Assembly: GCA_029243395.1 (NCBI GenBank)
Contig: JAQWSE010000002.1
Span: 248,001-312,000 of the forward strand
Reading direction: 5' to 3'
Source: Paracoccaceae bacterium
GTDB lineage: Bacteria > Pseudomonadota > Alphaproteobacteria > Rhodobacterales > Rhodobacteraceae
Length of the DNA: 64,000 nt
The notes beneath the pieces are model-generated. The model had not been told where the DNA came from. It made no database searches and saw only the letters and a list, made by a program, of their open reading frames with translations. This document shows, in pieces, positions 1 to 54,452 of the stretch (position 1 is its first letter; every line of letters begins with the position of its first letter). A program made the position numbers and the translations under genes.

Positions 1-788
1 GTCACCGGAGCCGCTAGTGGAATAGGTGAGGCATTGGCTAGGCATTTTGTCAAGTTGAAGGCAAACGTTTTTTAGCTGACATAGACCAACCGAGATTAAG
101 TCTTGTTGCGGAGACATTGAGCTGCTCCTATTATGTATGTGACGTAGCAAATGAGGAGAATATCCTTGCGCTAGTGAATCAGGCAGATACTGAATTAGGC
201 CAAATAGACCTATTTTGTTCTAATGCCGGAATCCTTTTTAAGGGTGAAGCAGCCCCTCTAGCGTTAGATGAGCAATATTGGATGAAATCTTGGTGTGTTA
301 ATGTTATGTCACATGTTTATGCAGCTCGGTATGTTTTACCTCAAATGATACAAAGGCAATCAGGTTATTTCCTTCAGATAATATCAGCTGCAGCTTTGCT
401 ATCACAGATAGGAGCACCAGCTTATTCTGCTACCAAAAGCGCTGCATTGAGTTTTGCAGAGTCATTAGCAATTAGTTATGGTCATAAGGGGATTAAAGTT
501 TCTGCAGCATGTCCCCAGTACGTGGCAACACCCATGCTTGGTTTTGAAGACACCAAGCTACCGAGAGATGCTAAGAACTTAATTTCTGCCGATGAAGCAG
601 CACTACGAATTATTGATGGGGTGCTCCAAGAAAAGTTCTTAATCCTTACAGATTCCGATTTAATAAAATTCTTTGAACGAAAACGCAAAGATTACGATCA
701 ATGGATAATCGGAATGCAAAGGTTGCAAAATAAAATTGCTCATGAAACAGGAGAAATAAATTTAGACCATATGTATAAATTTATTTAG
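1..788 (+). CDS. SDR-family oxidoreductase, 5'-partial, frameshifted
   Basis: Short-chain dehydrogenase/reductase with a Rossmann fold binding NAD(P). The first frame (1-72) encodes the TGxxxGIG cofactor motif (VTGAASGIGEALA) and then meets a TAG at 73-75. The continuation LADIDQPRL and the rest of the fold lie in another frame from about 72 onward, so one base appears to be missing in the six-T run at 68-73. Downstream I see the SNAG motif, the catalytic Ser about 12 residues before the active site, and the YSATK active-site Tyr/Lys. If the downstream frame were translated alone, the first usable start is a TTG at 117, which would lack the nucleotide-binding motif. It is either a sequencing or assembly indel or a recent pseudogene; the substrate is unknown. 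Confidence 0.8.
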
Positions 789-16236: not shown

Positions 16237-18576
16237 ATGGATGAACACAATTTGAAGAAACCCAAAAGCTTGGCGGAAAAAGCTTTATTGAACCGCTCCT
16301 GCAATTATCTAAATGATTTAAATGAGAAACAGAGGGAAGCGGTCGAAAAAATTTCTGGCCCACTTTTGGTGTTAGCTGGAGCTGGAACCGGTAAAACACG
16401 AGCGCTAACGGCGCGCATTGCTTATCTTATAGATAGAGGTCACGCTAGGCCTAATGAAATTTTAGGTGTGACGTTTACTAACAAGGCAGCCCAGGAGATG
16501 AAACAGCGTATTGGTAAGTTTTTGGGAGCTGCTGTTGAAGGTATGCCCTGGTTAGGCACATTTCACTCTATTGGTGCTAAATTATTGAGAAGGCATGCAG
16601 AGCTCATTAAGCTCAAGACAAATTTCACTATCTTAGATGTTGATGATCAGTTACGTCTTCTTAAACAGCTCATATCTCTTGAAAATATTGATGAAAAGCG
16701 TTGGCCAGCAAGAAACCTTGCAGGTCTCATTGATCACTGGAAGAATCACGCCTGGCTTCCCGATAATCTGCCATCAAGTGAGACAAATGCTTACGACGGG
16801 AAAGGTCCTAAACTGTACAAATTATACCAGGAAAGGTTGAGCATATTAAATTCTGTTGACTTTGGTGATCTTATTTTACTGCCTATTCGTTTAATGCAAG
16901 GTAATCCTGATTTGCTAGAAAAATATCAGGGAACCTTAAGGTTTATATTAGTTGATGAGTATCAGGACACAAATGTTGCTCAGTATCTGTGGCTTAGATT
17001 ATTAGCCGAAGGGCATAAGAACATTTGCTGTGTAGGAGATGACGATCAATCAATATATGGTTGGCGAGGTGCAGAAGTAAGAAATATCTTATCATTTGAA
17101 AAAGACTTTCCAGGAGCAAAAATAGTCAGGTTGGAACAAAATTACAGATCTACACCTCACATTTTGGCTGCAGCATCTTCACTGATAGCTACAAACACTA
17201 AGCGACTGGGGAAAACCCTATGGACGGATACCAAATCAGGAGAAAAGGTCAAACTAATCAGTCATTGGAACGGCGAGGAAGAGGCTAGATGGTTAGGGGA
17301 TGAAATAGAAAGCCTATGCCTTGGTACTAGAGGGATGAAGCCTTTTAAATATGATGAGATTGCTTTATTAGTGAGAGCTTCCTTTCAAATGCGTGTTTTT
17401 GAAGATCGGTTTGTTCAAATGGGGTTGCCCTACAGGGTAATTGGGGGACCTAGATTTTATGAAAGGAAAGAAATAAGGGATGCTATAGCTTACTTTAGGG
17501 CCAGCTTAAGTTTTGACGATGGTTTAGCGTTAGAAAGAATTATAAATACACCCAAGCGCGGTTTTGGGGAAAAGTCCTTACAGGTGATGAATCTTATAGC
17601 CCGGGAACGGGGTATAAGTTTGATGGCTGCAGCTAGAATTGCTGTTGATGATGGTATGCTTCCACAAAAAGTATCTAGTGATTTGGATGGGCTCCTTAAT
17701 AACTTTAAACGTTGGAACGAAGATTTTCTAAATGGATTGAAACAGCACACTGAGGTTGCTGAAGCCATCTTAGATGAATCGGGGTATACTGAAATGTGGC
17801 AATTGGAAAAATCTCCTGATGCCCCAGGTCGACTCGAAAATCTAAAAGAACTAATAAAAGCCATGGGCGAGTTTGAGAACATTCAGGGGTTTTTAGAACA
17901 TATATCCTTAATTATGGAAATGGAGTCTGACAACAATGTTCCCAAAGTTTCCATAATGACCTTACATGCAGCTAAAGGATTAGAGTTTCCCGTTGTTTTA
18001 CTACCTGGTTGGGAGGACGGGTTGTTTCCCTCGCAGCGATCTATGGATCAAAAGGGATTAAAAGGATTAGAAGAAGAGAGGAGATTAGCTCACGTAGGTA
18101 TCACAAGGGCAGAAAGTTATTGCATAATAAGTTTTGTTTCCAATCGCAGAATATTCAACCAATGGCAGAACGCAATTCCTTCCCGCTTTATTGATGAATT
18201 GTCAGAAAAAGACATTGAAATATTAAATAGCAGTGGGGGTTATGGAGCTAATTTAGCAGAAGCTTTTCCGGAGTCATGGAGATTTGATAATTTAGGCACA
18301 GATAAACAGATAAACGATGGAGGAAAGTATGATTCTCCTGGTTGGCAAAGGATGGAAAAAAACTTAAAACAGCATATTTTTAAGCCGAAGGTATCAAGAC
18401 ATTTTCAATCAGTAGACCAGACTCATGATTTCAATGTGGGGGATAGAGTTTTTAATCAGAAATTTGGTTATGGAATAATAGAAAGTATGGATGGGATTAA
18501 TTTGAAAGTTAATTTTGAAAAAGCCGAAACCAAGAATGTCAGGGCCTCATTTCTGGTGCATGAAGATGATGTTTAA
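16237..18576 (+). CDS. UvrD/PcrA-type superfamily 1 DNA helicase
   Basis: A ~779-residue 3'-5' helicase of the UvrD/PcrA family, acting in nucleotide-excision and mismatch repair and in replication-fork clearance. Motifs in order: Walker A AGAGTGKTRALTARI (Ia FTNKAAQEM), motif II DEYQDTN, III GDDDQSIYGWRGA, IV QNYRST, V MTLHAAKGLEFPVV and VI EERRLAHVGITRA. The extreme C terminus (GDRVFNQKFGYGIIE) is the PcrA-type RNA polymerase/DNA-interaction Tudor-like fold. The ATG at 16237 is favoured over an upstream GTG (16213) because an AGGGA lies eight bases before it. It diverges from pyc. It would cooperate with UvrB, whose gene is interrupted in this window. Confidence 0.93.
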   Translation: MDEHNLKKPKSLAEKALLNRSCNYLNDLNEKQREAVEKISGPLLVLAGAGTGKTRALTARIAYLIDRGHARPNEILGVTFTNKAAQEMKQRIGKFLGAAVEGMPWLGTFHSIGAKLLRRHAELIKLKTNFTILDVDDQLRLLKQLISLENIDEKRWPARNLAGLIDHWKNHAWLPDNLPSSETNAYDGKGPKLYKLYQERLSILNSVDFGDLILLPIRLMQGNPDLLEKYQGTLRFILVDEYQDTNVAQYLWLRLLAEGHKNICCVGDDDQSIYGWRGAEVRNILSFEKDFPGAKIVRLEQNYRSTPHILAAASSLIATNTKRLGKTLWTDTKSGEKVKLISHWNGEEEARWLGDEIESLCLGTRGMKPFKYDEIALLVRASFQMRVFEDRFVQMGLPYRVIGGPRFYERKEIRDAIAYFRASLSFDDGLALERIINTPKRGFGEKSLQVMNLIARERGISLMAAARIAVDDGMLPQKVSSDLDGLLNNFKRWNEDFLNGLKQHTEVAEAILDESGYTEMWQLEKSPDAPGRLENLKELIKAMGEFENIQGFLEHISLIMEMESDNNVPKVSIMTLHAAKGLEFPVVLLPGWEDGLFPSQRSMDQKGLKGLEEERRLAHVGITRAESYCIISFVSNRRIFNQWQNAIPSRFIDELSEKDIEILNSSGGYGANLAEAFPESWRFDNLGTDKQINDGGKYDSPGWQRMEKNLKQHIFKPKVSRHFQSVDQTHDFNVGDRVFNQKFGYGIIESMDGINLKVNFEKAETKNVRASFLVHEDDV

Positions 18577-38002: not shown

Positions 38003-39127
38003 GTGAAGAAAAAGAAATTAGAGACTAGTAAGAGTTTTAACCTAAGATCCAATTTTTTACCCTCTGGAGATCAACCTAAGGCTATTGACAGTCTGGTTTC
38101 CGGGCTTCAGCAATCAGAGCGAAATCAGGTCTTATTAGGTGCTACTGGCACCGGTAAAACTTTTACCATGGCTCACATTATTGAAAGAACTCAGAGGCCA
38201 GCCCTTATTTTGGCGCCCAACAAAACACTTGCAGCACAATTATATGGAGAATTCAAAACATTTTTCCCCGATAATGCTGTAGAGTATTTTGTTTCATTTT
38301 ATGATTATTATCAACCGGAGGCCTATGTTCCAAGATCTGACACCTATATTGAAAAAGATGCTCAAATAAATGAACAAATTGATAGAATGCGCCATTCTGC
38401 AACCAGAGCACTTTTAGAGCGTGACGATGTTATCATTGTGGCATCTGTTTCCTGCATTTATGGTATTGGTTCAGTCGAGACTTATAGCGCGATGACACAA
38501 GAACTCAAAGCTAATAGTACTTATGATCTGCGAACTATAATTCAAACTTTAGTAGTCCAACAGTATCGTCGAAATGATCAAGCTTTCAAGCGGGGAACAT
38601 TTCGTGTTAGAGGTGATGCCTTAGAAATATGGCCTGCACATTTAGAAAATCGGGCGTGGCGTCTTTCATTTTTTGGTGAAGAATTAGAGAAATTGGATGA
38701 ATTTGATCCCTTGACCGGTGAAAAAAGTAGTTCCCTTGGAGCTATTAAGATTTATGCAAATTCTCACTATGTAACTCCGAAGCCCACTATTAAGCAGGCA
38801 ATTAAGAATATTAAAGTAGATTTAGCGAAAAGGTTACGGGAACTCACTGCAAATGAAATGCTACTTGAGGCTCAGAGACTAGAGCAGAGAACAAATTTTG
38901 ATCTGGAGATGATGGAGGCTACAGGGGCGTGTAGTGGTATAGAGAATTATTCTCGCTATTTAACTGGAAGAAAACCGGGCGAGCCTCCTCCAACTTTATT
39001 TGAATATATACCTGAAAATGCAATTGTTTTTGCAGATGAGAGTCATGTAGCAATTCCTCAGTTAGGAGGAATGTTTAGAGGAGACCATCGTAGAAAAACG
39101 ACTCTTTCGGACCATGGTTTCCGATAA
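38003..39127 (+). CDS. uvrB: UvrB, N-terminal part (gene cut by in-frame TAA)
   Basis: The first 374 residues of excinuclease subunit UvrB, which loads damage from UvrA for UvrC incision. Walker A GATGTGKTFTM, the beta-hairpin VSFYDYYQPEAYVPR, SVSCIYGIG and the DESH box are all normal. The sequence ends GFR, then TAA at 39125-39127, then P-S-C-M-D-N-R-P in the same frame. Most UvrB proteins read GFRLPS..DNRPL here, so the TAA stands where a Leu codon (TTA) is expected, a one-base change. Start GTG at 38003. Alone, this half lacks helicase motifs IV-VI and the UvrC-binding domain. Confidence 0.93.
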   Translation: MKKKKLETSKSFNLRSNFLPSGDQPKAIDSLVSGLQQSERNQVLLGATGTGKTFTMAHIIERTQRPALILAPNKTLAAQLYGEFKTFFPDNAVEYFVSFYDYYQPEAYVPRSDTYIEKDAQINEQIDRMRHSATRALLERDDVIIVASVSCIYGIGSVETYSAMTQELKANSTYDLRTIIQTLVVQQYRRNDQAFKRGTFRVRGDALEIWPAHLENRAWRLSFFGEELEKLDEFDPLTGEKSSSLGAIKIYANSHYVTPKPTIKQAIKNIKVDLAKRLRELTANEMLLEAQRLEQRTNFDLEMMEATGACSGIENYSRYLTGRKPGEPPPTLFEYIPENAIVFADESHVAIPQLGGMFRGDHRRKTTLSDHGFR

Positions 39128-39136
39128 CCTTCTTGC

Positions 39137-40141
39137 ATGGATAACCGTCCTTTAAAATTTGAAGAAAGGGATGCTATGAGGCCACAATCTATTTTTGTTT
39201 CAGCTACACCTGGCCAATGGGAGATGTCAGAAGCACAGGGAGTATTTGTAGAACAGATCATTAGACCAACTGGTCTAATTGATCCATTAGTAGAGATAAG
39301 GCCAGTAGGTGCCCAGGTGGATGATTTGCTCCATGAGGTGAGATTAGCTTCTAACAAGAATTTGAGAACCCTTTGTACTGTTTTGACAAAAAGAATGGCA
39401 GAAGATTTAACAGATTTCTTACATGAAAAAGGTATCAGGGTTCGTTATTTGCATTCTGACATTGATACTTTGGAACGAATTGAAATTTTAAGAGATTTAC
39501 GCGTTGGGACTTTTGACGTTCTTGTTGGTATTAATCTTTTGCGAGAAGGTTTGGATATACCTGAATGTGGATTAGTTGCTATTCTTGATGCAGACAAAGA
39601 GGGATTCTTAAGGTCGCAAACTTCATTAATCCAAACAATTGGACGTGCAGCTAGAAATGTTGATGGTAAGGTAATCATGTACGCCGACAAAATTACAGGG
39701 AGCATTAAAAGAGCATTAGAAGAGACTGAGCGTCGAAGGAAAAAACAAACAGAATACAATAAAGAGAAAGGTATAACACCCGAAAGTATTAGAAAAAATG
39801 TGGCAGATGTTCTTGAGGGAATTTATGGCGGGTCAGTTGATATGGAAAGAGTCACTGCTAATCTAGAAAAACCTGCCAAGTTAGGAAATAATTTGCAGTC
39901 TCATTTAAAAAATCTGAGAAAAGAAATGTTTTTGGCAGCTGAAAACTTAGAGTTTGAACAAGCTGCAAGCCTGCGAGATGAAATAAATCGATTGGAGAAA
40001 GCAGAGCTCGCTATAGGTGAAAAACCACTGATCAGACAATCTGAATTAAATCAGAAAAGTAATATTCAGAAAGTAAGTGGAAGGTCAAAAGGAGGTTTGG
40101 CCGGAACCCGTACTTTAAGGAGCAAAGCTAGAATGCTGTAG
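39137..40141 (+). CDS. uvrB: UvrB, C-terminal part (same frame after TAA)
   Basis: The remaining 334 residues, in the same reading frame as the preceding entry: helicase motifs IV-VI ([30 protein letters not shown]) and a C-terminal UVR domain ([31 protein letters not shown]-type helices) that contacts UvrC. The ATG at 39137 has no Shine-Dalgarno, so independent translation is doubtful. All conserved residues are intact, so the disruption is recent, erroneous or translated through. Combined length (712 codons) is normal. Confidence 0.93.
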
Positions 40142-53948: not shown

Positions 53949-54452
53949 ATGGGTGAAATTCTTATCAAAGGTTTGTACTTTCTTTTACTAGGAGTAATAG
54001 TAATCATCATTCCCATGGCCCCAATTTCTAGCACACCTACAATAATTGAAATACCAGACACTCTAATCTGTTTAATATTCTCGTGGTTGGTTTTAGATCA
54101 AAAAAGTGCACCCCTTTTATCAATTTTATTTTTATGCCTTTTGGCCGACATTTTGTGGATGAGACCAATTGGCCTTTGGCCTATGTTTATTCTTTTAACT
54201 TCTGAATTAGTGAGACATTATCGTTTAAGGATAGTTAATCAAAGTACCTTATTTAAATTTTTTTGTTTTTTACTTTTTTTCTCCATTATCAATGTTGGTG
54301 TAAAACTATTATCTCTTGTTGTGGCCTTAAAACCGCTAGATTTCATGATGTGGCTAAAATATTTCTTATTTACCGTCCTTTTATTTCCCATTGTTAATCT
54401 CTGCCTAGAATACACTATTTTCAGGCGTAAGCAGACCCTCAAGCAAAGTTGA
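53949..54452 (+). CDS. mreD: Rod-shape-determining protein MreD
   Basis: A 167-residue integral membrane protein with about five hydrophobic segments and little sequence conservation. Assigned mainly by position between mreC and mrdA and by its length and topology; the PDTLICLIFSWLVLD and LADILWMRPIGLWPM segments fit MreD. Confidence 0.85.
   Translation: MGEILIKGLYFLLLGVIVIIIPMAPISSTPTIIEIPDTLICLIFSWLVLDQKSAPLLSILFLCLLADILWMRPIGLWPMFILLTSELVRHYRLRIVNQSTLFKFFCFLLFFSIINVGVKLLSLVVALKPLDFMMWLKYFLFTVLLFPIVNLCLEYTIFRRKQTLKQS

Follow-up and report, generated by a model that had tools for sequence, protein, structure and literature searches.

A lone in-frame stop codon in uvrB of a Rhodobacteraceae draft genome: probably a local consensus error or a fresh inactivation

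The window analysed here is a stretch of 64,000 nucleotides (C8:248001-312000) from G000, a Rhodobacteraceae draft genome of 2.49 Mb in 13 contigs that is 98% complete and belongs to a mostly marine group. On the forward strand of the window, in frame 2, positions 38003-40141 hold a uvrB reading that is continuous apart from a TAA at codon 375 (39125-39127), around which positions 39116-39142 read GGT TTC CGA TAA CCT TCT TGC ATG GAT. This stop splits the gene into two open reading frames (ORFs) in the same frame: a 5' part at 38003-39127, whose 374 codons before the TAA encode the Pfam ResIII/DEAD N-terminal helicase part plus the UvrB interaction domain (UvrB_inter), and a 3' part at 39137-40141, which begins with the ATG of codon 379 and encodes 334 aa that match Pfam Helicase_C, UvrB and UVR. 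The TIGR00631 model spans both halves (G000:C8:286036-287994, model positions 2-657 of 658) with one TAA inside, and its score of 993.4 bits against a curated cut-off of 750.1 places the sequence in the UvrB family over the length of the model. The single continuous reading frame that is open in the compared relatives is, however, interrupted here at codon 375. A second uvrB copy in this genome was ruled out by a DNA search for the gene in G000, which returned a single place; the family model gave one match above its cut-off and three others that were weak and partial, and nine pattern matches on viral contigs included no related sequence.

A comparison with related genomes, which had been proposed as a check of this locus, indicates what the stop replaces. 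Relative loci were fetched with the N-terminal part of uvrB as the query, and a motif search found a leucine codon at the TAA site in 79 of 80 loci (the best 80 of 556 confirmed); at the 80th, L013, the motif failed through a neighbouring residue and the alignment shows Leu. The original prediction that a lone TAA replaces a conserved Leu in uvrB is thus borne out by 80 of these best 80 loci. Of the 40 relatives that were searched, G003 and G007 lie nearest; they share 95.4% and 94.5% uvrB DNA identity with the window, are both open, and are identical to the full reading at 38003-40141 in length, GTG start and TAG stop. Their alignment to the window is gap-free and, together with the TIGR00631 score, it confirms the further claim that the UvrB frame continues across the TAA.

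On a broader scale, no internal stop was present in the best aligned stretch of 105 distinct relative rows. A family search of 295 genomes found a UvrB match above the cut-off in 275, G000 included, and only weak matches in the other 20; none of the matches listed contained a stop inside uvrB. Weak partial matches, none of them above the family cut-off on recheck, were seen in G002 (same genus, 83% complete) and in G114, G184 and G227 (94-97% complete), and the absence of uvrB from some family drafts is either a real loss or an assembly gap. Among the relatives compared, the TAA in uvrB is a lesion private to this assembly.

The remainder of the gene looks constrained. When private codons were assigned by parsimony among G000, G003 and G007, the window had 29 synonymous and 7 non-synonymous uvrB codons, compared with 33 and 13 in G003, where an N accounts for one of the non-synonymous codons, and with 51 and 15 in G007. 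With the rest of uvrB carrying this signature (29 versus 7), the lesion is either of very recent origin or spurious. A decayed pseudogene was rejected on the ratio of 29:7, on zero indels relative to G003 and G007, and on there being one stop; only a second private change, W389R, points in the opposite direction.

This second change, a damaging codon at 39167-39169, reads AGG in the window and TGG in G003 and G007, and it lies 14 codons downstream of the TAA, at a position where all 109 relative rows carry Trp. It had been overlooked in the original prediction, which described all motifs as intact on both sides of the stop; that description needs amending at W389, which is Arg here. L375* and W389R are both T>A substitutions, at 39126 and 39167, 41 bases apart, a type that accounts for 17 of 355 private window substitutions across 18,767 positions aligned among G000, G003 and G007. 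In both of these columns the window alone departs among 106 distinct rows, and neither G003 nor G007 has any such column. A contrast based on invariant columns alone is weak, with one of the window's six non-synonymous changes besides the stop falling in such a column, compared with none in G003 and G007.

The rarity of such changes was assessed by counting radical replacements, defined as a BLOSUM62 score of -3 or lower, or a stop. The branch leading to the window has four of these in 13 genes aligned three ways, and L375* and W389R are the only internal ones; of the other two, one hits codon 3 of its ORF and one codon 166 in an ORF of 167 codons. In the latter (window 53949-54452), the codon-166 stop of G003 and G007 is CAA in the window, giving a two-residue C-terminal extension. 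As a background, 90 other genes (29,456 codons) compared between G003 and G000 contain 34 radical differences with one pair within 15 codons, these being unpolarised differences with gene ends trimmed by 12 residues, and from these counts we put the chance that another radical change would by accident fall 14 codons or fewer from the TAA at roughly 1.5-3%. This rarity and the 41-base spacing suggest that L375* and W389R share a cause, which could be a weak patch of consensus, one complex mutation, or drift after the nonsense change. Drift is probably the less likely of these. By our arithmetic, drift would place a mutation this close to the stop, 14 codons away or fewer, in only ~4% of cases (28/711 codons), a figure that weighs against a genuine inactivation.

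Two ways in which the cell could make a functional protein from the gene as it is written were considered. The first, that the TAA is read through often enough to yield working UvrB, would account for the persistence of frame and constraint on either side of the stop, yet it is very improbable. Every one of the 33 tRNAs listed carries a sense anticodon, and a UUA anticodon is not among them, although this list, drawn from 150 scored candidates out of 179, is incomplete. Over the 100 nt that follow the TAA, the RNA folds no better than shuffled sequences do (z 0.94). It is on these two observations that we regard readthrough as unlikely. In addition, the stop is conserved in no compared relative, Leu being found at all 80 loci (best 80 of 556), and W389R would probably harm a read-through product as well. 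No comparable mid-gene in-frame stop besides that in uvrB was present among the ORFs flagged in sampled stretches amounting to ~19% of the genome, and a changed genetic code is likewise unsupported, uvrB alone having a mid-gene stop among these flagged ORFs. Of the three options originally offered, a sequence error and a very recent mutation survive, while readthrough lacks support from the tRNAs, the downstream fold, the relatives or other genes.

The second possibility, a two-piece UvrB in which the second half restarts at the ATG at 39137 and the halves cooperate, draws on an in-frame start nine bases after the stop and on the complementary Pfam domains of the two halves. This arrangement is the least probable considered here: the same ATG is present in relatives with an intact uvrB, so it was not gained for restart, inspection by eye found no Shine-Dalgarno-like stretch upstream of it, the cut precedes the SATP motif of the helicase core, and W389R falls in the second piece.

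The quality of the draft bears on whether the stop is real. Sampled stretches of G000 (~19% of the genome) were scanned against G003 and G007 using mechanical ORFs above 130-150 aa. At the protein level, 81 comparisons with G003 and 52 with G007 flagged two and three places in G000, respectively; at the DNA level, 81 and 48 comparisons flagged three and five. The G003 copy of uvrB carries one N and was excluded from the comparisons with G003; the flag on uvrB therefore comes via G007 only. Two of the flagged places are true gene breaks in G000, the uvrB stop and a frameshift in a T run of a dehydrogenase gene. The remaining flags are ORF ends or N-terminal extensions of mechanical ORFs that precede a likely later start, and one, L211 4336-4839, is a piece of a gene that is open in G000 and has its frame broken in G007. 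A generally bad assembly was rejected on this basis, with just two gene breaks in 81 + 48 ORF comparisons.

The dehydrogenase ORF, named as SDR-type from its sequence, occupies window positions 1-785, with a gene start 27 bases before the window; its T run at 68-73 has one T fewer than in G003, so that only the first 33 of 271 residues stay in frame. A changed run length is a typical type of sequencing error; in good consensus sequences, wrong substitutions occur less often than wrong indels, which speaks against a miscalled base in uvrB. The search for a 16S gene gave none in G000, but it also failed in 5 of 14 control genomes; tRNA-Ile(GAT), tRNA-Ala(TGC) and tRNA-Ser(TGA) were absent from the incomplete list of 33 tRNAs. 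The rRNA operon seems to be missing from the draft, and the lack of 16S, tRNA-Ile(GAT) and tRNA-Ala(TGC) would suit a metagenome-assembled or short-read draft, although the draft type is uncertain.

On this evidence, we give roughly an even chance to the view that the one-off TAA is a local, base-level consensus error, in which the stop and W389R, 41 bases downstream, would have been miscalled together and living cells would carry an intact, single-copy uvrB. In its favour are the T>A pair, which comprises the sole internal radical changes in the 13 genes, the constraint on the rest of uvrB, and the T-run frameshift in the same draft. Against it, the draft is not generally poor, and a real double mutation would look identical.

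A very recent inactivation, meaning a real nonsense mutation carried by the strain or by the population behind the consensus, is a serious contender that we place somewhat below an even chance. In its favour, it takes the change of a single base, and few genes of this assembly are disrupted; W389R would derive from the same event or from later relaxed selection, a relaxation that it fits. Excision repair would then be lost, and a photolyase-family gene, which is open in G000 and above its cut-off, may deal with some of the UV damage. The 20 of 295 family genomes without a UvrB match above the cut-off, whether losses or assembly gaps, are also compatible with such an event, as is the published disappearance of uvrB and uvrC, with uvrA retained, in clam symbionts (PMC5310779). 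In contrast, uvrB is above the cut-off in 275 of the 295 genomes, and only 7 of the 36 private uvrB codons, the two lesions included, are non-synonymous, which argues against a long decay.

A further point against inactivation is that the partner genes uvrA, uvrC and mfd are likewise open, each scoring above its family cut-off. The only UvrD_C match found in G000 (window 17125-18141), also above its cut-off, lies in a 798-aa open frame. If the stop is real, the 374-aa product, without the C-terminal helicase half and the UVR motif, should be inactive. The loss of uvrB from an otherwise equipped repair system had been singled out as notable; the open uvrA, uvrC, mfd and UvrD-type helicase genes agree with the description of the system and make a loss mildly notable. 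One tentative proposal, which we regard as doubtful, is that a double T>A change in uvrB has only recently deprived a Rhodobacteraceae lineage of excision repair, with uvrA, uvrC and mfd open. Were it correct, this would be a naturally occurring uvrB mutant observed just as the function is lost, with its partner genes still open; if the cause is instead a wrong consensus, the locus illustrates why single stops in draft genomes call for read support. Consensus error and fresh inactivation are both ordinary, and a new mechanism is unnecessary for either.

Comparison with known systems places the gene within the UvrABC excision nuclease, as the intact G007 copy matches solved UvrB structures (PDB 9gy7, 3v4r, 2d7d and others) over residues 11-666. 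In the two solved UvrB alignments displayed, both structures have Leu where the window has its stop, and at the W389 position both have Phe, compared with Arg in the window and Trp in the relatives. A partial parallel exists in the symbionts of vesicomyid clams, intracellular bacteria with shrinking genomes, which are reported to have a largely deleted uvrB and a degraded uvrC alongside retained uvrA and mfd (PMC5310779). The likeness is that uvrB is broken while uvrA and mfd are retained, and the difference is that the gene described here has one stop and one missense change, is otherwise constrained, and is accompanied by an open uvrC. The loss of uvrB reported for the clam symbionts, by large deletions, is another stage of decay (PMC5310779).
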